Origin: Eudromia elegans | Taxonomy: Eukaryota; Chordata; Aves; Tinamiformes; Tinamidae | DNA length: 64,000 nt | Direction: 5' to 3' | Assembly: GCA_003342815.1 (NCBI GenBank) | Contig: PTEX01000205.1 | Coordinates: forward strand, 268,252-332,251 | In this document: positions 9,726 through 48,217 of the stretch, in pieces | Layout of the letters: every line of letters begins with the position of its first letter | How positions within the stretch are numbered: position 1 is the stretch's first letter | The notes under the pieces: generated by a model | What the model was told of the DNA's origin: nothing | Database searches by the model: none | Seen by the model: only the letters and a program-made list of their open reading frames with translations | Program-made: the position numbers and the translations under genes

Positions 9726-10570
9726 AAAACAGGAATCAAGCAAAAACAACCCCTCTTTCTGCCAAGGCGGCGGGGAGGGACTCGCACCCTCTGGCTGAGC
9801 CCTCCCGACCACTTTGCTGCTCCCCGCGCCTTTATTACTCATTTCCCTTTCCGTTCCTGCAAGAGCTGCCATCAGCCCAGCGACCAGCAAGATGTTATTG
9901 CAGGTGCCGACTTGCCCCAGCCGCGCTCGCTCCCGGAGCGCGCTCAGCGCCGCTCTCCTGAAACCCGAGAGGGATTGTGTTCATTCCATGCCATTTTATT
10001 TCCATGCTATGAGAGCTAACGTTTGTTAGGCGTCACTAATCCAGCCGTTAACGGGGCAGCGGAGAGGGGCTGCAGCTTTGCCTAATGGGGCAGATTTTAT
10101 TGATTATTTCGAGCCATCGATGCAATCCCTTTCCAGATGCATGAGCAGGAGGAAAGGGGGATGTTTGAGACAGGGCTCATTTTGAATCAAGCTTCCAGCA
10201 CCTTGGCCACACTCTAGGGATGCTGGCAGACCAGAGTTGTCCCGCAGGGAGAAGAGCTTCCTAACCCTGCGGCTGCGGGCAGAGATGGAGGGGGAAGCAC
10301 CCGCAAGGCCCACAGCTTGGGGAAGGCCCCTGCACTGCTGCGTGCTGGTGCTGTGTCCCAGAGAAAGGGCGTTTGGAGGCGAGGAGGTGGCTCTGCTGCT
10401 CACGGTGACACGCAGCCCACTCTGCAGCCGTGCCCAGCTGCGCATGCCCTGGGATGCTTCTCTCGGAGCAGAGGAATCCTGCAGGGCCAGGTGGAGAGGT
10501 GGGAGGTCTGGGAGCATGGGGGACGTCCTGGCTGGCGCCGTGGCAGTGCGTGGGGACTGAGCGCCGCCTC

Positions 10571-10769
10571 CTGCTGTGCTGCACTGTGCTGTGCTCTGCT
10601 GCACTGTGCTGCACACTGTGCTGTGCTCTGCTGTGCTGCACTGCGCTGTGCTGCACTGTGCTCCGCTGTGCTGTGCGTTGTGCTGCACTGCGCTGTGCTG
10701 TGTGTTGTGCTGTGCTCTGCTGTGTTCTGCTGTGCCGTGCGTCGTGCTCTGCTGCGCTGTTTGTGCTCG
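10571..10769. repeat. Degenerate TGYRC pentanucleotide array
   Basis: About 200 bases are built of 5-base units, mainly TGTGC, TGCAC, TCTGC and TGCGC, with a few slips of register. There are roughly forty units. Because the unit length is not a multiple of three and contains no stop in most frames, the array creates long but meaningless open frames on both strands. It is a minisatellite-like sequence with no evidence of function. Confidence 0.85.
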
Positions 10770-12112
10770 CACGCAGCCAGGCGCACGCCGGAGGCAGCGC
10801 GTGGCGCCCCAGGCACGTGGCGCCTCTCCTGCCTACCCAAGCCTTGCAGACCCTGAGGCTGCTGCGGGCCCTGGCCGTGGCAAGGGGGGGATGGCAGCAG
10901 CGCAGCGGTGTCCCTGGCAGGGGCTGCTGCAGCCTCCTGAACCCACCTGCCCTGCAGACCGGGGGGAAGCGGTTCCGGCACTCTTTTCCAGATGGAGAGG
11001 CTGGAGCACAGGGATGAGGCTAAATAAGGATCTCAGCAGCTCCTGGCTCTCTTCCCAGCGCTTCCTCCCACAGCTCACCAAAAGGCAACTGCAAATCAAA
11101 CCCTGATGGGGAGAAGCAGCCCGAGGCCAGGCTGAGGCACGAGCAGCCGGCGCTCGCTGCCTGGTGCGGAGCAGCGGAGCACGGGGAGCGCCCCGGAAGG
11201 AACCCAGGGGAAGTCGTGTCCTGGGGGTCCCGAGGGAAGCAGTGCTGGCAGCTTCCTGGGCCACCCCAGTGGTACGTGAAGGTCTGGAGCATTCATAGCC
11301 GAAGCAGCCACCAGCAAGGCGCGTGACCAGCTTGCACAGCACAGCTGACACAAGCGCTCGTGTCAGGTACCCGTCCCACTGCAGAAGGCCCTATGAAAAG
11401 CTCGCAGCAGTTACCTACGGGTCGGGGTGCTTGCTGGCCGCGCTCCCCATCGCGTGCGTCTCTCTGGGAAGCGATGCCACAGCGACAGACGCCACTTCTA
11501 AAAATAAACCCTCCCTTGCACTGGTTTCCAAGGCTGCTGCTTCTACGAGCTTATTCCCCATGAAGCACTAATGACCATCAGCAGGGACTGCGGCAGAGCA
11601 GGAGCAGGGGCACATTCCCCTCGAGCCACCGTGGCGCTTCCTTGGCCTCTTGTTTTCCAGCCATGCCACCCTCAGCCTTGGTGCCTGCAGGACAAACCCC
11701 ATAACAAGCAGCGCAGCGGCCCTGCCGCAGCCGCAGGGACAGGGCTCCCAGGGCTCGAAGGGCAGACAGTCAAGGCCTTGTGCTGCTGGTGTGCCCGGGC
11801 TGGAGCCCTCGGAGCCGGGGGCGGCTGCCTGCCCGTGTGTGCAGCAATAGCGTGCGAAAAGAACCTCCCCGCGGGACTTCTATCACCCCTCCAGCCCCGG
11901 CGAGGGGAAGGAGGCCACTGCTGGGGAACATCTGGCTCCCATTGCTCATTGTCTGGCAATTAATGTCAGCGCCGCAGACAGCAGGGACGTCCCATATTAA
12001 ACAAACACGGCCGCGCGCCGCAGACCCGCACGGTGACGCGGGGGCGCCGCACGCAGGCACACGCACCCGCGGGTTCCCATGGCGCCCACGCAGGGACCGC
12101 ACTCCCCGCCGC

Positions 12113-22395: not shown

Positions 22396-25146
22396 TCATG
22401 GGCATGTGGCTGCCAGTGGCTGGAGACTCACCAGCCTCACCGACACCCTGGGTCTATCTCTATGGCGAGTGGCTTTGTAGAGGAGAAGGGCCAGACTCAG
22501 CCCCAGAAATGTGCAACCAATTTCCAGCACAAGCATGGACAAGCACAAGGAAAGGGAGGCCAGGCAGTACCAGTGGCTAGAAAACAAGGTGCAGCCCCAA
22601 GCACGACGCCAGCAAGGGGACAAAGACAGAGAGACCGGCTGGGCATGTGCCTGGTCCCACATGGCAGCAATGGTGAGGGGAGAGGGTGCAGGAGATGTGG
22701 AGAGAGGGACGAGTGGGGGCTGACAGGTAGAACTCTTCTGGGAGGCTGTGCCTGAGGGCTGGCTGCTGCTGATGGGTAGTCTCTGCACGGTCACCTGGTC
22801 CAACTCTCTGCTTGCCTTAGAGGCTTGGGCAGATGGTGAGTATGATGTCAGTGTAGTCATGCCCACCCCATCAGCCCTGAGTGGTGGCTGGAGCACTGGC
22901 GTGGAGCCTGAGGCAAGGGAGGTGCTGGGAGTCCCTAAAATAGTGGCTGCTGTCCTCTCTGTGGGACCTGAAGAAACAGGTGGCATTTGTCCAGCAGTTG
23001 GTGCCACGGTGGTAGATGACACTGAGGTGGCAGCTGAAGCTAGTGTAGATGGTGTGGGCTCCATAGTAGTGACTCCAGGAGGCTGTAGACTTAAGATGGC
23101 TGGTGTTTGACTGAAGCTGAAGACCTTCGGTGGCAGGGTTACAGATGGAGTGGTTATGAAGGCATCTGTCTGCATGTCTGGAGTTGGGGTGGTGATGGAG
23201 GCCTCCGTCAGCATGGTCAGAGCTGGGCTGGTGAGGGAGGTCTTCTGAGTCATGGTCGGAGCTGGGCTGGCGATGGACGCCTCCGTCAGCATGGTCGGAG
23301 CTGGGGTGGTGATGGAGGCTTCTGTCGGCGTGGTCGGAGCTGGGGTGGTGATGGAGGCCTCCGTCAGCGTGGTTGGAGCTGGAGTGAAGATGGAGGCCTC
23401 CATCGGCATGGTCAGAGTTGCAGTGGAGATGGGGGTCTTCTGAGGCATGGTTGGAGCTGGGGTGGTGAAGGAGGCCTCCTGTGGCACAACTGAAGATGGG
23501 GCTACAATGGAGGCCTCTGGCAGCACAGCAGGTGATGATTTAGTGATGGGGACCTCCAAGGATGGAGCCTTGATGTATGCTTTTGGTGGCATGGTTGACA
23601 CTATGGTGGGAATGGCTGCAGGCAATGCTGTGTTTGGCACTGCCAAGACTTGGAAGGCCTCTGGTGATGATGTGGTCAGTACTGCAGTTGGGAAAGCCCT
23701 GGCTGATAGCAAAGATGACATCCCTTGTGATGATAAAGAGGTGAATGGCAGAGGTAGAGTAAAAGAAGTTGAAGCAGGCGGAGTATTTGGACAAATTAAC
23801 TGCTCGTCCCTCAGTGACATTACTGCTTGGCCTGCCAGGTGAGGTGGACTCTTGCATGCAACTTGGTCGGGCAATTTAACCTTCTCAGTGTTGCCCTGGA
23901 TCCAGCTATGCAGGTAGAAAAGGTTGCAGTCACATCTCCATGGGTTCCCACTGAGATACAGTGAGCTGAGTCTTTCCAGCGGGTCCAAGAGCCCATGAGG
24001 GATATTCTCCAGCTGGTTCTTTCTAAGGTTGAGAGTTTTCAGATTTGTGAGAGAAACAAAGACCTTGCTGTCCAGAGCAGCAAGCTGATTTGTATCCAGC
24101 TGGAGGTCTGAGAGCTTGCTGAGCCCAGTGAAGGCTCCTGTTGGTAGGGCTGTTAGCTGGTTCTGGGACAAGATGAGTTTGTGGAGAGATGTGAGGTTTC
24201 TAAAGATGCCATCCGGAAGTGAGATCAAACTGTTCCTGCCCAGGTCCAGCTCCCGGAGCTGTGGCATGACGTCAAAAAGGCAGCTGGGAAGCTCCACAAT
24301 GTGATTTGAACCCAGCGTCAGTAGCTTCAGTTTTTTTAAACCGAAAAAGCCTTTAAGTGGGAGAATCCTGAGGAGGTTGTTGTCCAAGAGGAGTTTCTCC
24401 AGGTGGGGCAGGTTATTCAGGAGGGTGGTTGGCAACACACTGAGTCTGTTCCTCTGGAGACTGAGCTCCAGCAGCCCCAGCTGACCATCCAGCAACCCCT
24501 CTGGGAGGTCCTGCAGCTCGTTCTCATACAGCCGTAGGACTTGCAGCTGGGCAAGGTTGCTAAAGGCGTGCTCAGGAAGAGTCCTGATCCTATTTCTAGA
24601 CAAGTCCAAAAAAGTTAGATTGGTAAGAGAATCAAATATGCCTTCTGGGAGAGAAGGGATTGCATTGATGTGCAGGGAGAGCTCTCCCAAATTCTTCAGA
24701 CCATCAAATAGTCCTTTGGGTATCTGTCTGATGTGGCTGTCTCTCAGCTCCAGTTTCTGCAAGCTCGGAAGGTTTTGGAAAGTACCCACAGCTAGTTCTT
24801 CTAATGAGGCACCAGAGATCTCCAAATCCCTCAGCTTCTCCAAGCCATCAAAGGCTCCTGGTTCAACTGTCTTGATTTTGTTGCCAATAAACAGAATTTT
24901 GATCAGGCTGGGCATGTATCTGAAGGCACCTTTCCTTATATCAGTGATGCTGGTCTGTACAAAGATCATCTCAGAAATGAATGGCTTTGCAATCTTTGGA
25001 ATCTCTTTGACATCATTTTTGTTTCCTCTGTAGACCTCTTGGTAATCCTTGGGGGTTTCATACTGATCTTCACTCAAGATTTGTTCTTGGCACTTATAGG
25101 GATGGAAGGAGAGAAAGAAAATGAAAAAGAAATGCTGGTACATCAT
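22396..25146 (-). CDS. CPN2-like LRR protein with mucin stalk and membrane anchor
   Basis: I do not recognise a named gene. The 916-residue frame starts 1 nt after a strong splice acceptor (long pyrimidine tract ending in AG at 25,148-25,149), so it is probably a single coding exon. Order: hydrophobic signal-like N-terminus (1-18); acidic Tyr-rich segment (20-50); a partial LRR then thirteen 24-residue LRRs (about 56-390); LRRCT with C405, C407, C431 and C452; a Thr/Pro/Ser-rich stalk (455-840) with ten 13-residue repeats (543-672); Cys-rich juxtamembrane (C845, C852, C861); hydrophobic segment (about 862-890); short basic tail. The IFVQTS and LEISGAS motifs and the LRRCT (NPWRCDC...LICP) match CPN2 best, but the CPN2 C-terminal domain is absent. 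The usual LRRNT cysteine cluster is missing. Likely a cell-surface sialomucin-type receptor. An alternative is a GP1BA-like platelet gene. Confidence 0.85.
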   Translation of the reverse strand: MMYQHFFFIFFLSFHPYKCQEQILSEDQYETPKDYQEVYRGNKNDVKEIPKIAKPFISEMIFVQTSITDIRKGAFRYMPSLIKILFIGNKIKTVEPGAFDGLEKLRDLEISGASLEELAVGTFQNLPSLQKLELRDSHIRQIPKGLFDGLKNLGELSLHINAIPSLPEGIFDSLTNLTFLDLSRNRIRTLPEHAFSNLAQLQVLRLYENELQDLPEGLLDGQLGLLELSLQRNRLSVLPTTLLNNLPHLEKLLLDNNLLRILPLKGFFGLKKLKLLTLGSNHIVELPSCLFDVMPQLRELDLGRNSLISLPDGIFRNLTSLHKLILSQNQLTALPTGAFTGLSKLSDLQLDTNQLAALDSKVFVSLTNLKTLNLRKNQLENIPHGLLDPLERLSSLYLSGNPWRCDCNLFYLHSWIQGNTEKVKLPDQVACKSPPHLAGQAVMSLRDEQLICPNTPPASTSFTLPLPFTSLSSQGMSSLLSARAFPTAVLTTSSPEAFQVLAVPNTALPAAIPTIVSTMPPKAYIKAPSLEVPITKSSPAVLPEASIVAPSSVVPQEASFTTPAPTMPQKTPISTATLTMPMEASIFTPAPTTLTEASITTPAPTTPTEASITTPAPTMLTEASIASPAPTMTQKTSLTSPALTMLTEASITTPTPDMQTDAFITTPSVTLPPKVFSFSQTPAILSLQPPGVTTMEPTPSTLASAATSVSSTTVAPTAGQMPPVSSGPTERTAATILGTPSTSLASGSTPVLQPPLRADGVGMTTLTSYSPSAQASKASRELDQVTVQRLPISSSQPSGTASQKSSTCQPPLVPLSTSPAPSPLTIAAMWDQAHAQPVSLSLSPCWRRAWGCTLFSSHWYCLASLSLCLSMLVLEIGCTFLGLSLALLLYKATRHRDRPRVSVRLVSLQPLAATCP
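23131..23520 (-). repeat. 39-nt coding tandem repeat (mucin-like)
   Basis: Ten units of 39 nt encode residues 543-672 of the CPN2-like membrane protein. The consensus is TEASITTPAPTxx; variants begin PEAS, QEAS, QKTP, MEAS, QKTS and TDAF. The array stays in frame throughout. It is rich in Thr, Ser and Pro, as expected for dense O-glycosylation, and could vary in copy number between individuals. Confidence 0.9.
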
Positions 25147-28100
25147 CCTAAAAAAAGAAGAAAAAAATCAGATATCAGGTATGAAGAAAAATAAAATCTG
25201 TGTCCACAGCTCCTGAATTATGACACTGGCATTCATCTCTCAGCACTCTTCTACCCGCATGCCATAACTCATTTCATGAAAGAGAGACTGTACAAGCCAA
25301 AGTACAGTGCATTTACAATAACTCACTTTTGTTGATACTGAGAGATGGAGAGAAGTGGAGAGAGAGCCAATTCACAACAGAAGTGTGGGAAGAGCCAAGG
25401 CCAAATGACCTTGCTTACTGAGAATTTGCCAATGAATTTACCACTTAGAACAGCAGACCACTTTATGCATTACAGTAACTTTGGTAACAACAGCTAGGAC
25501 ACTGAGGCACTCAGCACCAACAGCATCAATTGCCCTTGACTAGGAAGGACACATTTCCCATGTCAGTCATGGTCAATCGCAGTGGTGCCAGGCCAGCCTT
25601 TCGACAGAGCTCCTCGGGATTGTCCAGTGTCACCTGAGTCAAGAGAAGCAGATACACTGATGCACTGATGCCTGATGTGTCCCTTTTTCTTCCTCCTCTA
25701 GCTGTCCTGCTCTAGGTTTCTGTGCCCATCCTTGGGCCTGAACATACAGGCCAGACACCTCTGGAGAGCACACTGAGCTTTTCACTTAGGACTAGGCCCA
25801 TTAATATCCACAACTTAACCACCAGATGCCCAACATTCAGGGCCATGATATGGAAGCCACAAGGTGCACTCAGGATCTGTGTAAATGTCCCCCACTTCCA
25901 CCTCATCGTTTTACCACATCCAGCTACCACATTTGCTCTAGTTTAATGACAATGAGCGTCACGCTCAGTAGCAGTTTTCAGATTGTGATGCACATCCATG
26001 GGTGAGAGTAGGAGAATGGAATGTGGACTGTTTTTTGCCATGCAATGCTCACTACAGAGAAAGTTTACACTGGGAGCTGAGATTTCCTGTGAAAAGACCT
26101 AGAAACTCTCTGAAAAAAAAAACATTTAGAGATCAGCAAATCCAGCTTTCCAAAGACTAAAAAACTTTGGGTACGAACAGACACATCTGAGAGGTACGTG
26201 GCTTACTTCCCAAGGGTTTCCCAGGGCCAAAAACCATTTTTCCCTGACCATCCTCTTTCCAAGCCTATCTCAGGTAGAGAAGTTGGGGGCCAGGAGAATA
26301 GAAGTGCAGCTCAGGGGTAGATCAGAAGGCCTGGGTTTCATGCACAGAGAGCAAAAGCTGGCCTGGGTGCAAGGAGATGGATACAAACAGTTTTGAAATG
26401 CAAAGTGCCTTTAAAACTCCCCCATCCCAGCTGGCTGCATGGAGCTTCAGCCTGGCCTGCCCCACTCTCTCCTGCAGAGCAGGGATAAGAGGGGACAGGC
26501 TACAGGAACAGGCACGCGATCAGAGCCTCGCAGCCTTGCTGTGGAGGGACGATGCACCCCCCAAACTGCCTTTCCCAGCACGTTCCTGGTTTTAAAGAGC
26601 AAAAAGAAAGCATTTTGCAGCACTTACTTGGCCAGGCACTTCTGCCCCGGCGCGGGCACCCACTGCAGGCACTTCAGAGGCGAGCTGAGCCAAGCGAGGA
26701 GCGAGGCCTCCAAGCGCAGGGTCCCTCCACATGCCAGGGCCGAGGCAGGGAGCTCTTTATCCCTGCAGCAGGCGCAGGGCTTGGGTTCACACGATGTCAC
26801 TGTGCAGACAGATAAGAGGCAGCACGGCCAGGCTGCCGGCACAGGCAGCAGTTCCCGAAGCTCCCTCGAGATGAGGAGAGGCACGTAGCCCATAGGTGTT
26901 ATCTGCGGGAGCCACCTGACGAGTCGGATCCAGAAAGCTGGAGATCTGCAGTCCAGGCTGCCCAGAAGCCAATGGTCTCCACAGTCTGATATCTTAGTGT
27001 AACCCATTGACCCCACAGCCACCACCCGCTTTAACACAACAAAAAGGAGATTTTTTACTGAAACATTTCCTAGTAAACATACCCAAACGTCCCCTTCCTC
27101 CCGAATCGGCTAAAAGGCACCGCTGTGAAGGTGTTTTGTGGAGCTTCCACAGTGACAACAGATCCCACGATGTCTGGCCATGTCTCGGCACCCATGGCTG
27201 CTGCCCCACTCGAGGGTTGAGGCTGCCCAGCCACGGACCTGTAGTTGTGTCTTGCACCCACCTGCATCATCATACAAGTCAAAGGCCTCCTGAGGGCACC
27301 CAGCACTCCCAGCAGGCTCAGTGCTTTGAGGGACAAAAACACCATCTGATTCAGAGACTTAAAATGACAAGGAGCTTATCACATCCCATGGAGTAATTGC
27401 ACCTGATCATTTCACCTCCGTGTTCCACCTCTTAACAAAGGTTCAGCTCATGCTTACCAGGCTTACCCATGCCTTTCCTGTCAAATTAAAGAGCATATAA
27501 AACCTTGCACGTAAACCTCCAGCGTAAACACCACACGCACGGTGCCTTTCAAACAGAACATGCTGACTCTCCTGTGTCTTGTGCTTCTCTCGTGTCCAAA
27601 ACACCAGCTCCTCTGCGTCACAACAGGGCAGCAGTTCTGCACCGTGCGCTGACGCGGGACAGGCAGGAGGAAGGGGCCGCAGGGGCAAACACAGTCAGAG
27701 CTGAGTGGTACCTGCAGCGAGCTGGGACCGGGGAGAGGGCAGGCCAGGGGAGTCACCTCCTCTCTATGCATGGTGCTAATTAAACCTTCCGTGCAGCAGG
27801 AAACGTGTGTGCGAGCACGAGCGCCGGTGGGAGGGGACGGCTCCCAGCTGGGACGGCGCAGTGCTGCCAGTGCGGAGACTCAACAGGCTGGAAGGAGGCC
27901 GGTGCTGTCAGGCAGCAGCCCCTCCCCAGCGCTAGCAGGGCTGGTTTTCCAGCCAAGCCAGCTGCTTTGATGCAACTAACGGAGAGGAAGCACCATGTGG
28001 TTCGCGTGGTCCCAGAGCACCCGAGGCCCAGAACACCGGCCACCAGGGAGAGCAAATGCAGCAAACCCCCAAGAGAAGACCCCAAGTTCCAACGAGTTCA

Positions 28101-28417: not shown

Positions 28418-28575
28418 GATACTTGGAATCAACAGGAAACACCTGGCAGCGCGAATAAACACCCGCAGCCCAGCTCTTGCGTCTGGCGAGAGACGGCCGC
28501 CGCGGCAGGAAGGCTGCCGGGGACAGGGCAGCGTTTCTCCGCGTCTCTCCGGCCACAGCAGCGAGCGCAGAGCCC

Positions 28576-30132
28576 TCACGGGGCAGCGGGGCCTGGGGGC
28601 TGCCCCGCGATGCTCACGCTGACGTGCAGCGCGCCGCAGCTGGAGCGCAGCACCCAGGCGCCGCGAAAGGGCAGCCCCGCCGCCGCCGCGGGCAGGCGCA
28701 GGCTGAGCTGCCGGCAGCCCGCGCTGTCACAGGCCGCCTGCACGCTGCCCTCCGTGTCGCTATAGGTGCACGGCCCTTCCTCCTCCTCCTCCTCGGGCTC
28801 CCTCGGGCATGGCAGCTGCTGTCCCGCTGCCTGCAGGAGGGACCGTCCCTTCAGGGCCGGGGGCTCGGCGCAGGAGGCCGACGCGTGCGCCACAGGGTCG
28901 GCGAACGCCTGCAGCCAGTCCAGCAAGTAGGCAAGGCGGCAGTCGCACACCCAGGGGTTGCCGGCCAGCCCAACACGTGCCAGCGCCTCGTTGGCGTCGA
29001 AGAGCCCCGGCGGCAGCCATGGCAGGCGGTTGTGCTCCAGGGCCAGCACCACAAGGCTGGGCAGCCCCGCCAGCAGCCCGGGCGCCAGGCTGGAGAGGTT
29101 GTTGTGGGTGAGCCGCAGCGCCGTGAGGCTCCCGAGGCCCTGGAAGGCACCCGTGGGGAGGTGAGCCAGGCTGTTGTGTGAGAGCACCAGGGTCTGCACC
29201 TCCGAGAGGTTGGCGAAGACGCCCGCAGGCACCGTCTTGAGGCAGTTGCGGGCCAGCGAGAGGTCGAGGAGCCGCGGGGTGCCCCAGAAGAGGGTGTCCG
29301 GCAGGGCGGCGAGACGGTTGCCCTCCAGGCTGAGCGAGGTGAGGTTGGGGAGGTGGGAGAAGACGCCAGGGTGCAGGCTGCCCAGGGCGTTGTGCTGCAG
29401 CTGCAGGCGCCGCAGCCCCCGGAGGCTCGCGAAGACCCCACGCGGCAGCTCCCGCAGCCGGTTGCCGCCCAGGTGGAGCTCCACGAGGTGCCCCAGGCTG
29501 CTGAAGGCGGCGGGCGGCAGCCAGGCCAGCAGGTTGTCGCTCAGCTTCAGGATGCGCAGGGAGGTGAGAGGAGTGAAGAGTCCCGGGGGCAGCTCGGTCA
29601 TGAGGTTCTGGGAGAGGTCCAGTGCCTGGAGGTGCCGAAGCGGGCGGAAGATCTCGGTGGGCAACGCCTCAATCTTGTTCCTCCGCAAACGCAGGTCCTG
29701 CAAGGAGCCCACGGCACCAAAGGTCCCCGGCTTCAGGGAGCGGATAGCGTTGGAGCCCAGGGAGAGCTTGGTGAGTCTGGGGAGGCCAGCCAAGGAAGCG
29801 GGGCTGACAAATGACAGGGGGTTGCCTGAGACCTCCAGCTCGGTGAGGTTGGGCAGCCCCTGAAACGTGCCCGCCTCCAGCACCTGGATGTTGTTGTTGA
29901 GGAAAACCAGCTTGGTGAGGGTGGTGCTGGAGCCCAGGGCCCCTCTGCAGAGGCTGCTGAGGGCCGTCTCCACGAAGAAGAGCTGGGTGGCGTTTCCCGG
30001 CAGCCCCGCAGGGATGTCCCGCATCCTCTCCTCCGAGCAGAAGACTTTGGAGACATCGTAGCACTGGCAGGACGGCGGGCAGGGCTGGGGGAACCCTCCC
30101 ACCAGCAGGGACGCCAGCACCACGTAGACCAT
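28576..30132 (-). CDS. CPN2: Carboxypeptidase N regulatory subunit 2
   Basis: This encodes the non-catalytic glycoprotein subunit that binds and stabilises the carboxypeptidase N catalytic subunit in plasma; the enzyme trims C-terminal Lys/Arg from kinins and anaphylatoxins. The 518-residue product (human about 545) has a signal peptide (about 1-16), LRRNT cysteines C18, C22, C24 and C32, the FVETA motif near 53, thirteen LRRs (about 70-381) and LRRCT (C396, C398, C421, C442). The family-specific C-terminal domain contains CTYSDTEGS and LRSSCG (C455, C468, C473, C499). N-glycosylation sequons include N47, N95, N263, N308 and N345. I start at 30,132 because it follows a possible acceptor by 9 nt (exon from 30,141) and begins the signal peptide; the frame stays open upstream for 131 codons without homology. 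A run of Glu (447-452) replaces part of the linker. Codon use is strongly GC-rich. Confidence 0.95.
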   Translation of the reverse strand: MVYVVLASLLVGGFPQPCPPSCQCYDVSKVFCSEERMRDIPAGLPGNATQLFFVETALSSLCRGALGSSTTLTKLVFLNNNIQVLEAGTFQGLPNLTELEVSGNPLSFVSPASLAGLPRLTKLSLGSNAIRSLKPGTFGAVGSLQDLRLRRNKIEALPTEIFRPLRHLQALDLSQNLMTELPPGLFTPLTSLRILKLSDNLLAWLPPAAFSSLGHLVELHLGGNRLRELPRGVFASLRGLRRLQLQHNALGSLHPGVFSHLPNLTSLSLEGNRLAALPDTLFWGTPRLLDLSLARNCLKTVPAGVFANLSEVQTLVLSHNSLAHLPTGAFQGLGSLTALRLTHNNLSSLAPGLLAGLPSLVVLALEHNRLPWLPPGLFDANEALARVGLAGNPWVCDCRLAYLLDWLQAFADPVAHASASCAEPPALKGRSLLQAAGQQLPCPREPEEEEEEGPCTYSDTEGSVQAACDSAGCRQLSLRLPAAAAGLPFRGAWVLRSSCGALHVSVSIAGQPPGPAAP

Positions 30133-33794: not shown

Positions 33795-35531
33795 TCAGGC
33801 TTCGTTGGGCGCCTTCATCCTCATGAGCACGATGTTGCTCTTCTTCCTACAGCTGTAGACCACCAGCGCCACGAGTGCGCAGAGTAGGGCTATGCACACC
33901 AGCACAATGACCGCCACCACCACCCCACTCTGCACCCGCGTTAGCCCCCACTGCCCCCTCTCCTCCTGCTCCTCCTCTGCAAGGCCCGGGGCAGTCGGCA
34001 GCCCCATGGGGTGCCCCGTCTCCGCGGAGGCTGTCCCGGACTCACGTGTGGAGGGCACAGTGCTGGGCTGCGAGGTGGCCGTGGAGCCCTCCGGCTCGGC
34101 TGTTGCGGGCAGCCCGCCGGAGAGCAGCTGGTCACGCCGCAGCCCCACGATGGGGGCGCCCCGCAGGAGCAGTGGCAAGGCGCACACTGGGGGCACCTCG
34201 CCCACCTTGTGCTCGTTGGCCTCCAGCCATGTCTTGAGGGAGAGGATCTTGTCGTCGCAGCGCCAGGAGTTGTTGTGCAGCCTCACCTCCCGCAGGGCGG
34301 TCAGCGGGGCGAAGACGCCCGCCGGCAGGTTCTCCAGAACGTTGCCCTGCAGTTGCACCTTCCTCAGCGCCGGCGTGGCCTCGAAGAGGCCCCGTGGCAG
34401 CACCCGCAGCTGGTTGCTCTGCAGCGAGATGTTCTGCAGCTTGGGCAGCCCCTGGAGAGCGTCGGCATCCAGGCGCTGCAGTGCATTGCTGTGCAGCGAC
34501 AGCTCCAGCAGCTCGCCCAGGCCCCGGAAAGCTCCTGCTGACACCGAGCGCAGCTGGTTCTTGCTCAGCACCAGGAGCTGCAGCTCCGTGAGGTTGCTGA
34601 AGACACCCTCTGGGAGGCCAGTGAGCTCGTTGTCATAGAGCCACAGCTCCTTGAGGTTGGGCATGGACCCGAAGGCACCAGGGGCGATCTCCCGCAGCCG
34701 GTTGACATGCAGAGTGATCTTGGAGAGGGCACGCAAGGGCAGGAAGACGCCGCTGGGCAGCGCGGTGAGGAGGTTGTTGGAGAGATAGAGCTTCTGCAGG
34801 CGCTTGTTGTGCACGAAGAGCTCTGGTGACAGCGTCTCCAGCTGGTTCTGGTGCAGCCCCAGCTCCTCCAGCTCCGGCAGCCCATCAAACATGCCCGTGG
34901 GGATCTGCCGGAGCCGGTTCTCGTAGAGCCGCAGCACCTGGAGCCGCGTCAGCCGCTCAAAGGCCTGGGGCGGCAGGCGGTCGATGTTGTTCCTGGCCAG
35001 GTTCAGCTTAGTGAGGCTGGTGAGCGGGTCGAAGACCCCCTCTGTCAGCTCGTGCAGGTTGTTGCCGTGCAGCTGCAGCTCTTTGAGGTTGCTCAGCTGG
35101 GCGAAGTGGGAGGGCTCAATGTGGACGATCTGGTTGCTGGATAGGAGCAGCGACTCCAGCTGGCTCAAGGGCTCAAACACTTCCACTGGCAGCTCCTGCA
35201 GCTTGTTGCTGGCCAGGCTGAGGTAGCGCAGTGAGGGCAGGTACTGGAAGGCTCTGGGGCTGATGCGCGACAGATCGTTCTTCTCGATGCGCAACCCGAT
35301 GAGCATGGAGGCGTTGCCGAAGGACGCGGCGCCCAGCTCCGTGATGCGCGTGTTGACGATCTGCAGGGTCATGGTGTTGGCAGGGATGGGCCTGGGTACG
35401 GCGGTGATGCCGGCGCCGGAGCACTCCACCTGCGCAGTGCGGACGCACTGGCACTGCTCTGGGCATTGGGCACGTGCGATGCAGACCACGTGCAAGCCCA
35501 CAAGCAGCAGGACCCAGGCACTCTGCTCCAT
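33795..35531 (-). CDS. LRRC15: Leucine-rich repeat-containing protein 15
   Basis: This is a type I membrane protein; in mammals it marks TGF-beta-responsive fibroblasts and mesenchymal cells and binds extracellular matrix. The 578-residue product (human 581) has a signal peptide (1-20), LRRNT (C23, C27, C29, C37), a partial plus fourteen full LRRs (about 54-410), LRRCT (C425, C450), a Ser/Thr/Pro and acidic stalk (471-530), a transmembrane helix (about 536-559) and a short tail ending MKAPNEA, almost identical to the human end. In the LRRCT the usual second Cys is Asp (WRCDD), as I recall for human. The start at 35,531 lies 5 nt after an excellent acceptor (AG at 35,537-35,538). A putative TATA promoter and non-coding exon lie near 37.2 kb. 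Confidence 0.97.
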   Translation of the reverse strand: MEQSAWVLLLVGLHVVCIARAQCPEQCQCVRTAQVECSGAGITAVPRPIPANTMTLQIVNTRITELGAASFGNASMLIGLRIEKNDLSRISPRAFQYLPSLRYLSLASNKLQELPVEVFEPLSQLESLLLSSNQIVHIEPSHFAQLSNLKELQLHGNNLHELTEGVFDPLTSLTKLNLARNNIDRLPPQAFERLTRLQVLRLYENRLRQIPTGMFDGLPELEELGLHQNQLETLSPELFVHNKRLQKLYLSNNLLTALPSGVFLPLRALSKITLHVNRLREIAPGAFGSMPNLKELWLYDNELTGLPEGVFSNLTELQLLVLSKNQLRSVSAGAFRGLGELLELSLHSNALQRLDADALQGLPKLQNISLQSNQLRVLPRGLFEATPALRKVQLQGNVLENLPAGVFAPLTALREVRLHNNSWRCDDKILSLKTWLEANEHKVGEVPPVCALPLLLRGAPIVGLRRDQLLSGGLPATAEPEGSTATSQPSTVPSTRESGTASAETGHPMGLPTAPGLAEEEQEERGQWGLTRVQSGVVVAVIVLVCIALLCALVALVVYSCRKKSNIVLMRMKAPNEA

Positions 35532-46090: not shown

Positions 46091-48217
46091 CTATAGCTTT
46101 TTAATAATTTTTATGAGAACAACAGGCTGAGCAGGAATCTCCTTAGAGCACAAGAACTGCCTAGTTTTGCACATCATATACAGAGTGATCACAACAGTGA
46201 CAACCTGGACTGCTAAAATCAAGCTATGAAGGCACAAAAAGAACTGACAATAGGGAACTATAGTATTGAAATGTGGCTCGGCACTCCTGCGGGCCGGCAA
46301 CTCCTCCCACCAGGCAGGAGTAGTTAGATCTACTCCACCATCTAAATCTGTTCTTCTTACACCGCTGCTCCGTGCTTTGGTGCTGGCAGACGTCTGCGCT
46401 GGAACCCCAGAGGAATGAGGCTGCCCAACTACGGTACTGAAGCGCGGCTCGGCACTCACGCGGGCCGGCAGCTCCTCCCACCAGGCAGACGCAGCCAAGT
46501 CCGTTTCGGGAGTCAAATCCGCTCCTGCCACACCGTTGGTTTCTGCAGCCGTTCTGGGCGAAGTTTGGGCTGGAACAGCTGGAGAATGAGGCCGCCCAGC
46601 ACCTCCAACACGTGAATAGGTAAAACCTAGCGTTGCAAGAGGCTTCGACGTGGGTGCGTTAGCATCCGTGCTGGGCACTGCTGTTATAGTGGCCGCCGAC
46701 GTTGATCTGGGCTGTCCTGTCCGCAGGGAAGTTGAAGTTGGGGAAGGAGCTGAGCTCCCGAGTGCCTCGTACAGAGCAGCTGTGGTTGGCAGGCAATTCA
46801 TGTGATGGCCTCTTAGAGCCATAAGAGAAATATTCTTCAGAGCTGGCGGGCTGTCACACATCAGAGACTGGGCTCTTCTTACTATATCAGCGCTCTTTCG
46901 AAGCCATTCCTGGAAGCCAAGAATTTGGCAATTGCATTTCCAAGGGTTGTTGTCAAGGAAGACTTCTTGCAGTTCAGGTAAAGCTGTAAAAAGATCTCCA
47001 GGAAGAGACTGCAGCTTCGTGCTATTGAGGTAAACTTTCTGAAGGTGCTTGAGATTATGAAAGAGGTTACTAGGAAGAAATTCAAGCCTCGAGTCATAAA
47101 TGGATATATTCTGCAGCTTATGAAGGTCCAGGAAGATGCCCTCTGGCAGGCTGGAAATATTAGTTGTATGCAGAGATAGGCCCTGCAGTTCGATCAGGCC
47201 ACTGAACACATTCTTAGGAAGAACACTAAGTTCTAGGTTGAAGCTCAACACAAGAAGCTCCAAATTTGTCAAGTTACTGAACACAAAATCTGGCAGCGTT
47301 GAGAGCTGCGTGTGATAGAGCCACAGGCTGCCAAGATTCCTCATTTCTCCAAACAATACTTCCGGAAGCGACTTCAGGGGGTTCCTGTACAAGGTCAACT
47401 TAGAGAGGTTGGGTAAGTGCAGGAAGAGCCCAGAAGGTAGACGCTCAAGCTTGTTTCTGGAGAGCGTTAGAACTCGCAGTTTACCAAGACAGTGAAATGC
47501 ATCGGGGGCAATGGCCTGGATGTTGTTTGAGTGCAGGAAGAGTTCCAGCAGCTCCTTCAAGCTGTCGAACAAGCCAGACTCTATGGAGGAGAGCTGGTTA
47601 AAGTAGAGCATCAGCTTCTGAAGTCTGGTCAACGCACTGAACGCGGTGCTGGGCAGCGCTGCCAAGTTGTTCCTCGACAAGTTCAGCACTTCGAGTCTGG
47701 CGAGCTTCCTTAGTGCACCTCTAGGAAGAGCTGTTAGCTGGTTCTTGTTCAAAAAAAGCTCCCGCAAACTGGCCAATTTGCCAAACAGATTCTCTCCTAT
47801 ACGTGTCAACCTGTTATTTTCCATGATCAGTTGCTGGAGGGATTCCATGTCATCAAACACTTCCTCAGGAAGCTCAACCAGCTTGTTATCCAGCAGCTTG
47901 AGGGCTTTTAGCCTATGCAGGCCTTTAAAAGCCAGTGGTGAAATCACGGATATATTATTGGAAGCTAAGATGAGAATCTGTAGTGGCAACATCCTGGAGA
48001 AAGTATCCTGCAGGGATGTTACCTGAGTGTTCGTTATGTGAATTTTTGTCATGTTGCAAGGTAGATTTAATGATTCCAGGTCTTTTATATGGGGACCAGA
48101 GCAACGAATTTCGTCTTTCAGAGAGCAGTCGCATTTCTCAGGACAAACGGATGCATCCAGCTGGAGGAAAAGCTTGATCATCACTGACAAAAGCAACACC
48201 AACATCCTTGTGGACAT
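46091..48217 (-). CDS. GP5: Platelet glycoprotein V
   Basis: This is a subunit of the GPIb-IX-V receptor on platelets or thrombocytes, which captures von Willebrand factor; mammalian GP5 is also a thrombin substrate and binds collagen. The 708-residue product (human 560) has a signal peptide (about 1-22), LRRNT (C25, C29, C31, C39), fourteen LRRs (about 77-413), LRRCT (C428, C430, C454, C475), a long stalk (476-655), a transmembrane helix (about 659-684, with the AVQ motif I recall from human) and a 24-residue Lys-containing tail. VLFGEM, LWL and the irregular 25-residue repeat (317-341) fit GP5 specifically. Extra length comes from a duplicated 57-residue stalk unit (542-655). The start at 48,217 lies 14 nt after an acceptor (exon from 48,231); Met5 is an alternative. 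Codon use is much less GC-rich than in CPN2 or LRRC15. Confidence 0.92.
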   Translation of the reverse strand: MSTRMLVLLLSVMIKLFLQLDASVCPEKCDCSLKDEIRCSGPHIKDLESLNLPCNMTKIHITNTQVTSLQDTFSRMLPLQILILASNNISVISPLAFKGLHRLKALKLLDNKLVELPEEVFDDMESLQQLIMENNRLTRIGENLFGKLASLRELFLNKNQLTALPRGALRKLARLEVLNLSRNNLAALPSTAFSALTRLQKLMLYFNQLSSIESGLFDSLKELLELFLHSNNIQAIAPDAFHCLGKLRVLTLSRNKLERLPSGLFLHLPNLSKLTLYRNPLKSLPEVLFGEMRNLGSLWLYHTQLSTLPDFVFSNLTNLELLVLSFNLELSVLPKNVFSGLIELQGLSLHTTNISSLPEGIFLDLHKLQNISIYDSRLEFLPSNLFHNLKHLQKVYLNSTKLQSLPGDLFTALPELQEVFLDNNPWKCNCQILGFQEWLRKSADIVRRAQSLMCDSPPALKNISLMALRGHHMNCLPTTAALYEALGSSAPSPTSTSLRTGQPRSTSAATITAVPSTDANAPTSKPLATLGFTYSRVGGAGRPHSPAVPAQTSPRTAAETNGVAGADLTPETDLAASAWWEELPARVSAEPRFSTVVGQPHSSGVPAQTSASTKARSSGVRRTDLDGGVDLTTPAWWEELPARRSAEPHFNTIVPYCQFFLCLHSLILAVQVVTVVITLYMMCKTRQFLCSKEIPAQPVVLIKIIKKL
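46253..46594 (-). repeat. GP5: 171-nt coding tandem duplication in GP5 stalk
   Basis: Two in-frame copies of 171 nt encode residues 542-598 and 599-655. Both keep PHS..VPAQTS, TDL/DL, AWWEELPAR and SAEP. The first half of each unit is Ser/Thr/Pro-rich and diverged; the AWWEELPAR core is nearly identical. I do not recall this in mammalian GP5. Confidence 0.92.

Follow-up and report, generated by a model that had tools for sequence, protein, structure and literature searches.

Which protein is encoded at 22396..25146, beside CPN2 in the 64,000-nucleotide window from Eudromia elegans: a converted CPN2, the avian GPIb-alpha or something else? With moderate confidence we regard the gene, called the stalk gene below, as a fourth, unnamed member of the CPN2-LRRC15-GP5 tandem cluster, probably encoding a type I membrane glycoprotein with an LRR head on an O-glycosylated stalk, one helix, a short basic tail and a putative role in adhesion or tethering. 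The sequence itself shows the parts, their union in a single frame, the locus and a rattlesnake protein of like plan. The features are as follows.

22396..25146, minus strand: stalk gene (unnamed, CPN2 cluster), coding frame of 916 amino acids, apparently a single coding exon
25147..25170, minus strand: polypyrimidine tract and AG directly before the ATG (sequence pattern only)
25090..25146, minus strand: probable signal peptide, residues 1-19, with hydrophobic FFFIFFLSF (model pLDDT <50 at 1-33)
24979..25089, minus strand: LRR N-terminal cap in degenerate form (residues 20-56), lacking the cysteines seen in CPN2, LRRC15 and GP5
23971..24978, minus strand: 14 leucine-rich repeats (residues 57-392), each 24 residues long
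23788..23970, minus strand: half of the final LRR, then the LRRCT cap (residues 393-453), with the cysteine offsets of bird GP5 (4/6/30/51)
22576..23781, minus strand: Ser/Thr/Pro-rich, by composition mucin-like stalk, residues 456-857
23146..23479, minus strand: tandem array with 8.6 copies of a 39-bp unit (13 residues, about TPAPTxPTEASIT)
22564..22611, minus strand: membrane-proximal stretch WRRAWGCTLFSSHWYC, residues 846-861, partly common to the rattlesnake protein
22480..22563, minus strand: transmembrane helix by hydropathy, residues about 862-889
22399..22479, minus strand: basic cytoplasmic tail, 27 residues
28576..30132, minus strand: neighbour CPN2, no membrane helix
33795..35531, minus strand: neighbour LRRC15, 501.8 bits to LRRC15 of PDB 9oib
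46091..48217, minus strand: neighbour GP5, which has a membrane helix and a Ser/Thr-rich stretch of its own

A frame of this length has a chance of ~1.6e-17 (independent bases, this composition), and the remaining five frames of 22396-25146 contain 15 to 57 stops each. Pfam LRR_8 matched the protein with an E-value of 8.1e-64. Its 14 LRR cores run from residues 57 to 369 at a spacing of exactly 24 residues, and an additional truncated core at 393 runs into the LRRCT; the thirteen full LRRs plus LRRCT counted by the sequence-only reading are a fair description if the first core is taken as the cap. The cysteines typical of an LRRNT are gone from the N-terminal cap, which holds only C19, while the neighbouring CPN2 has C18, C22, C24 and C32. 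AlphaFold2 modelled residues 1-456 (pLDDT 89.5, pTM 0.86) as a regular LRR solenoid with a helical LRRCT, and the PDB matches found with Foldseek were LRR proteins, with an engineered LRRTM2 at the top. The roughly 385 Thr/Pro/Ser-rich residues reported earlier were recovered at 456-840 (17.1% T, 15.6% P, 15.1% S), and the whole stalk of 402 residues (456-857) contains 129 S/T and 61 P. Hydropathy reaches its maximum at residues 871-889 and the tail carries 7 K/R/H and 1 acidic residue, in agreement with the hydrophobic C-terminal segment and basic tail of the same reading. With LRRs, stalk and helix in a single frame of 916 codons, its membrane-anchored mucin-stalk architecture was likewise borne out.

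The gene was also correctly placed as a paralogue within the CPN2 cluster: it lies on the same strand, in tandem with CPN2, LRRC15 and GP5, and its coding part apparently occupies one exon. LRRC15 has a membrane helix as GP5 does, CPN2 being the cluster member without one. The stalk gene is the only one of the four to have LRRs together with a short tail and a long mucin stalk that contains 13-residue repeats. Beyond GP5 the cluster is flanked by ATP13A3-like exons, which we take to be those of ATP13A3; this position presumably agrees with the human gene order. A Hairy_orange search gave 7 matches, and since all lie on other contigs, HES1 provides no synteny on the left of the cluster. In the searched stretches of C119:238252-372251, an interval partly masked by 5,646 N, none of the four LRR genes had a further copy or a remnant. 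In a survey of extracellular LRR proteins of human and mouse, a passage describes Cpn2, Gp5 and Lrrc15 as a tandem subcluster (PMC2235866). The stalk gene would add a new predicted surface receptor to the subcluster as listed there so far. No paper describing it was found in the open-licence literature, searched by title or abstract start.

Outside the window, a Crotalus adamanteus protein (P0016) aligns along the length of the stalk protein, with 51% over 89% of residues 14-215. It has the same odd N-terminus, LRRs, LRRCT, stalk composition, membrane anchor and tail, but it is 709 amino acids long, has about two LRRs fewer and retains two cysteines in its N-terminal cap. The 13-residue repeat is not apparent to the eye, and the likeness of its stalk to the bird stalk is one of composition only. 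The two anchor and tail regions align with a score of 94, while block shuffles gave 28.8 +- 6.5 and 0/2000 scored as high. P0016 is an apparent orthologue. Its label "chondroadherin-like" was taken as an automatic misnomer, with chondroadherin chains near the foot among the 60 matches listed. Because the rattlesnake protein shares N-terminus, LRRs, stalk composition, anchor and tail, the plan of LRRs, stalk and anchor is, as judged from this alignment, older than the bird-snake split. P0016 is the 1 clear full-length orthologue among the matches listed, so that the sauropsid breadth is thin. In Buteo, P0005 joins C-terminal LRRs, LRRCT and a stalk with the 13-residue repeat. In this gene model the second half of the stalk gene is fused with a piece resembling LRRC15, a sign that annotation pipelines fail at the locus.

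How the gene is related to its neighbours was addressed by scores, trees and topology tests, the clades for the latter having been chosen after the tree was seen. The LRR tree placed the stalk protein and the rattlesnake protein in a lineage of their own (97/96*). Joining the stalk protein to LRRC15 was rejected (p 0.006); the clade with GP5 had a p of 0.029, and GP5 itself pairs with LRRC15 (94/95). On these trees the CPN2/LRRC15/GP5 cluster has an old fourth lineage, the stalk gene. The sequence-only reading had proposed the conversion of a CPN2-like LRR domain. As an event peculiar to this lineage such a conversion is not supported: the snake has the plan too, and a bird-only sister relation with CPN2, leaving out the snake, is rejected (AU p 0.007). 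An older duplicate of CPN2, arisen before the bird-snake split and gaining stalk and anchor anew, is unlikely in our judgement, although several observations speak for it. The two genes adjoin, have equal LRR number and an LRRCT, and begin their first repeats alike (FVQTS/FVETA); repeat by repeat they stay in register over 15 (mean z 0.92 versus 0.34 at the next offset); and the clade of stalk protein, snake and CPN2 is borderline (p 0.050). The highest BLAST score was likewise to CPN2 (248 bits). The claim that the LRRs are closest to CPN2 thus stands for score, repeat number and register, yet LRRC15 (238) and GP5 (209) come near. The repeat comparison supports a CPN2-like register rather than a CPN2 clade. 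In the alignment behind the tree, the additional repeat of LRRC15 and bird GP5 is absent from fish GP5 and a turbot relative too, so that an equal repeat number is not necessarily a novelty common to CPN2 and the stalk protein. Nor must the anchor be a fresh acquisition, given that LRRC15 and GP5 both have one. CPN2 further differs by its four-cysteine LRRNT and has neither stalk nor membrane helix, whereas the stalk protein is membrane-anchored and does not have the C-terminus of the neighbour, which is presumably CPN2-type.

With GP5 the stalk protein shares the cluster, a membrane helix with a short tail and the LRRCT cysteine offsets 4/6/30/51, but GP5 has one LRR more. An ungapped YC...P...V.L register runs across anchor and tail of bird GP5 and the stalk protein. 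Against a stalk-plus-snake profile, 6, 1 and 0 of 1000 block shuffles equalled the score of bird GP5; fish GP5 gave no match (353, 448 and 545 of 1000). Against single sequences, the bird GP5 score was reached in 162/2000 shuffles for the stalk protein alone (not significant) and in 9/2000 for the snake alone. The anchor may be homologous to that of the GP5 of this bird.

Does the gene correspond to GPIb-alpha? In the 944-Mb assembly no separate GP1BA orthologue was detected with the human GP1BA probe. The stalk gene was first of 119 matches (84.9 bits, E 1.8e-21), followed within the cluster by LRRC15 (75.6), GP5 (75.4) and CPN2 (71.3 bits). A match on C634 covers GP1BA nearly end to end (residues 11-227); we take it to be an OMG-like protein, with a Ser/Thr-rich part, and it was rejected. 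BLASTP with GP1BA residues 80-229 also put the stalk protein first (98.6 bits; CPN2 90.9, GP5 90.1, LRRC15 86.7), but the whole LRR region scored level (CPN2 104 bits, stalk protein 103, LRRC15 103, GP5 101). With composition correction the order was CPN2 94.4, stalk protein 90.9, GP5 90.9 and LRRC15 79.3; phmmer placed LRRC15 (175.4) before the stalk protein (165.7) and CPN2 (165.0), and local tblastn placed CPN2 first. Because the rank changes with the scoring, GP1BA is about equally distant from all four cluster proteins. Birds are said, in a passage of PMC4486697, to have a GPIb-alpha without cytoplasmic domain that contributes to prolonged bleeding, as inferred with sequence probes of human genes. 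Since the human GP1BA probe finds the CPN2 cluster and no separate orthologue was detected, the published claim might rest on a paralogue from there. We give a small chance to the broader proposal that a separate GP1BA is missing from birds and related reptiles and that the stalk gene is the reported tail-less GPIb-alpha (PMC4486697), a stalked adhesion receptor of thrombocytes. Its GPIb-alpha-like plan would then have arisen from the CPN2/GP5 cluster or been kept there, with another ligand-binding surface.

That the stalk gene is the sauropsid GP1BA orthologue itself, displaced in locus and the true avian GPIb-alpha, is very unlikely. The top ranks in the genome search and with residues 80-229, no clearly better separate locus in the genome and the shared plan of LRR head, 13-residue mucin repeats and membrane anchor speak for it. 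The tree expected of an orthologue was not obtained in the phylogenetic check against GP1BA that had been proposed with the sequence-only reading, yet the grouping of GP1BA, stalk protein and snake was not rejected (p 0.156) and appeared unsupported (44/77) in one tree; none of the trees rejects kinship with GP1BA. With IGFALS included GP1BA was unplaced, and in another tree it joined CPN2 and IGFALS (97/69). The protein fails most of the features that define GP1BA. GP1BA lies in the CHRNE/SLC25A11/PFN1 neighbourhood rather than the CPN2 cluster, has a long cytoplasmic tail and contacts VWF with a long LRRCT loop, the beta-switch. Its LRRCT cysteine offsets are 4/6/43/59 instead of 4/6/30/51, and its LRRCT is followed by an anionic segment with sulphated Tyr, whereas the stalk protein has no Tyr at 440-523 and two acidic residues at 440-480. 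Passages of PMC8976409 give GPIb-alpha eight LRRs, against 14 cores here, and a tail that binds filamin A and 14-3-3, against 27 residues here. The GP1BA repeat length of 13 residues is given in a reference title in PMC1273636.

It is hardly credible that the gene is decaying or non-expressed, or that LRR and stalk parts belong to separate transcripts: the fused P0005 model and the lost LRRNT cysteines would fit, but the frame is intact, anchor and tail are conserved to the snake and the LRR fold is predicted with high confidence.

In such a fourth cluster member, the LRR solenoid would form a ligand-binding head on a stalk that would be heavily O-glycosylated and is partly made of repeats. 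The stalk would keep the head off the cell, and a single helix, followed by a short basic tail, would hold the protein at the surface. In adhesion or tethering, the stalk would lift the head over the glycocalyx. Since no signalling motif was recognised in the tail, any signalling would proceed via a membrane partner. A member with a mucin stalk in both bird and snake alters the view of the history of the cluster. It also makes the published avian GPIb-alpha point, as given in the passage of PMC4486697, testable: if the sequence behind it is the stalk gene or a neighbour, the explanation for the bleeding needs revision. With GP5 next door and a plan that outwardly resembles GPIb-alpha, thrombocytes would be a first guess for the expressing cells. 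The main text of a chicken thrombocyte transcriptome paper (PMC5053482), searched by term, contains no GP1B, GP5, GP9 or LRRC. The tract at 25147..25170 probably serves as the 3' splice site of a 5' UTR intron. The sequence-only reading was silent on this splice-acceptor-like tract, the 39-bp array and the LRRNT cysteine loss. In the LRRC15-like and GP5-like genes, too, a similar polypyrimidine tract comes before the ATG.

The protein under study is encoded by a single minus-strand frame, which shares its strand with three other LRR genes:

22396-25146, minus strand, coding frame of the stalked protein, 916 residues, uninterrupted
28576-30132, minus strand, CPN2, same strand as the stalked protein
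33795-35531, minus strand, LRRC15, 501.8 bits versus the LRRC15 of PDB 9oib
46091-48217, minus strand, GP5, groups with fish GP5 in the LRR trees

The sequence-only reading of a paralogue within the CPN2 cluster is borne out. The chance of such a frame is about 1.6e-17 (independent bases, this composition), and 15 to 57 stops were found in each of the five other frames of the interval. A hydrophobic signal-like stretch is followed by a short N-terminal cap without the LRRNT cysteines (C19 only, versus C18, C22, C24 and C32 in neighbouring CPN2), 14 LRR cores at a spacing of exactly 24 residues (residues 57 to 369), a truncated repeat and an LRRCT. Using an alignment of n = 8 sequences, AlphaFold2 modelled residues 1-456 as a regular solenoid with a helical C-terminal cap (pLDDT 89.5, pTM 0.86). 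Residues 456-857 contain 129 Ser/Thr and 61 Pro in 402, and part of this stretch is built from 8.6 repeats of a 39-bp (13-residue) unit. A membrane helix and a basic tail of 27 residues form the C-terminus. The membrane mucin-stalk architecture proposed earlier was confirmed in that LRRs, Ser/Thr/Pro stalk, helix and tail lie in one frame. Because a polypyrimidine-AG tract directly abuts the ATG, as also seen at the LRRC15-like and GP5-like ATGs, this pattern, read from genomic DNA rather than a transcript, suggests a single coding exon downstream of a 5' UTR intron.

Homologues were searched in a set of 5.8 billion proteins in three runs (1497 of 7995, 226 of 2127 and 58 of 1473 scored candidates passed; 120 were listed in each of the first two). 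One clear full-length orthologue was found among the matches listed, a Crotalus adamanteus protein annotated as chondroadherin-like (P0016). It matches the unusual N-terminal stretch with 51% over 89% of residues 14-215 and has LRRs, LRRCT, Ser/Thr/Pro stalk, a membrane-proximal AWG..L.S...YC stretch, helix and tail in common with the bird protein. For anchor and tail the local score was 94, reached by 0 of 2000 block shuffles (28.8 +- 6.5). In a Buteo japonicus protein (P0005), an LRRC15-like piece runs on into the second half of the stalked protein, including a 13-residue-repeat stalk; it was read as a gene-model chimera, suggesting that a hawk, too, has the gene downstream of LRRC15 and on its strand. 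The cysteine-poor N-terminus and LRRs of turbot P0178 resemble those of the stalked protein, and the N-terminus suggests a teleost relative. In the Scophthalmus maximus record, this LRR protein of the cluster type is fused to a TPR-type one with no apparent relation to it, which probably reflects read-through in the gene model.

In a tree of nine LRR domains rooted with IGFALS, LRRC15 and GP5 formed one clade (94/95), and CPN2 was separate from the other seven (94/94). Bird and fish GP5 grouped at 92/92 in this tree, at 94/95 in a second with human GP1BA added and at 99/97 in the AU-test tree; addition of GP1BA left the bird-snake pair, turbot, CPN2 and GP1BA without resolved positions. AU tests, whose clades were chosen post hoc with the tree already seen, gave p-values of 0.006 for the stalked lineage with LRRC15, 0.029 with GP5, 0.050 with CPN2, 0.058 with turbot plus CPN2 and 0.345 for turbot with the bird-snake pair. 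By these trees and tests, the predicted gene is an old fourth lineage of the cluster and not a bird duplicate. The earlier claim of a CPN2 conversion peculiar to this lineage is contradicted by the clade with the snake protein (97/96) and by p 0.007 for a clade of the bird protein and CPN2 with the snake outside it. The lineage is perhaps deep kin of CPN2. Over 15 repeats the two are in register (mean z 0.92 versus 0.34 at the next offset).

Anchor and tail of the stalked protein, the snake protein and bird GP5 share eight identical positions in a single ungapped register. With 1000 block shuffles at each block length (10, 20 and 30), the bird GP5 score was reached 6, 1 and 0 times, and the same test yielded no match for LRRC15 (87, 31 and 99) or fish GP5 (353, 448 and 545). 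Pairwise against bird GP5, the anchor of the stalked protein was unremarkable (162 of 2000 shuffles) and that of the snake gave 9 of 2000. A common origin of anchor and tail with their counterparts in bird GP5 is possible; in that case anchoring would be an old trait of the cluster, and it may be CPN2 that changed.

The human GP1BA LRR region, verified against PDB 1ook, was employed as query for the genome (944 Mb, 723 contigs; window at C119:268252-332251). The stalked protein ranked top of 119 matches with 84.9 bits (144 of 184 candidates scored), LRRC15 reaching 75.6, GP5 75.4 and CPN2 71.3 bits. BLASTP with the whole region gave CPN2 104, the stalked protein 103, LRRC15 103 and GP5 101 bits uncorrected, and 94.4, 90.9, 79.3 and 90.9 bits, respectively, with composition correction; for GP1BA residues 80-229 the stalked protein was top (98.6 uncorrected, 88.6 corrected). 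Using phmmer, LRRC15 (175.4) preceded the stalked protein (165.7) and CPN2 (165.0). In a comparison with the window and 48 LRR loci, some overlapping and with one piece displayed per record, the stalked protein was the best match of the GP1BA LRRCT (53.5 bits, 43% over 58 residues), and CPN2 that of the whole region (94.7 bits). GP1BA had no settled place in the trees: it joined the bird-snake pair at 44/77 in one, while another put it beside CPN2 and IGFALS (97/69) and gave p 0.156 for GP1BA with the pair. Because rankings differ across scorings, GP1BA is, in sequence, about equally distant from all four cluster genes. The genome search, limited to the scored candidates of a gapped assembly, turned up no separate orthologue of GP1BA. 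The sole candidate spanning GP1BA nearly end to end, 476-1789 of locus L056, was rejected as OMG-like; with its LRRs, Ser/Thr-rich part and hydrophobic C-terminus it imitates a full-length GP1BA match genome-wide.

The outward GPIb-alpha likeness noted earlier holds for LRR head, stalk and membrane anchor. The 13-residue stalk repeat is also shared with GP1BA, and such repeats readily arise in mucins. The LRRCT cysteine spacing differs (4/6/30/51 versus 4/6/43/59 in GP1BA). The GP1BA repeat appears in the title of a reference cited in PMC1273636. None of three defining GPIb-alpha traits described in PMC8976409, LRR number, anionic Tyr segment and long tail, was found in the stalked protein. 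Working with human-gene probes and OrthoMCL, PMC4486697 states that all vertebrates other than placental mammals have less than half of the GPIb-alpha sequence, and that the archosaurs and turtles examined lack its cytoplasmic domain. In E. elegans a human GP1BA probe lands on the CPN2 cluster, where the stalked protein is stalked and short-tailed. We infer that the published avian GPIb-alpha sequence may be this protein. The gene has implications for avian haemostasis that can be tested.

The best reading is a stalked surface receptor for adhesion or tethering, in which the LRR solenoid would be the head and the stalk would provide reach and protection. No signalling motif was recognised in the 27-residue tail. 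VWF binding in the GPIb-alpha manner seems unlikely because the protein lacks both the LRRNT cysteines and the long loop of the LRRCT, which have a role in VWF contact. As judged by eye, the helix residue 15 positions past the tyrosine of YC is E in the stalked protein, S in the snake protein and Q in bird GP5. According to PMC8976409, GPV and GPIb-alpha associate via polar contacts within the membrane; by this analogy a membrane partner would be plausible.

A tblastn search of stretches in C119:238252-372251 revealed no LRR gene beyond these four. Immediately left of the window, C119:258252-268251 contains 5,646 N, a gap or withheld sequence which could conceal more cluster members. The 10 kb to the right contain minus-strand P-type ATPase exons, presumably of ATP13A3, judged from the protein and from the human gene order. 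PMC2235866 describes Cpn2, Gp5 and Lrrc15 as a tandem subcluster (human chromosome 3, mouse chromosome 16), and its passages on them name no fourth member. Within the Ser/Thr-rich stretch of bird GP5 (46289-46576, minus strand), VPAQTS...AWWEELPAR is directly duplicated, the two copies starting at 46576 and 46405 (period 57 residues), so this stalk was lengthened, too. The LRRCT of bird LRRC15 (NSWRCDDK; 34164-34271, minus strand) has two of the usual four cysteines, at offsets 4 and 29; the second of the four is missing as well in LRRC15 of PDB 9oib (NPWRCDSN). GC-rich codons most likely account for the long open plus-strand frames antisense to CPN2 (28477-29181, 234 aa) and LRRC15 (33892-34638, 248 aa). 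Finally, a 222-aa minus-strand frame at 10104-10772, whose first ~70 residues are AQHSTAQ-like repeats, is probably a short-period minisatellite and not a gene.
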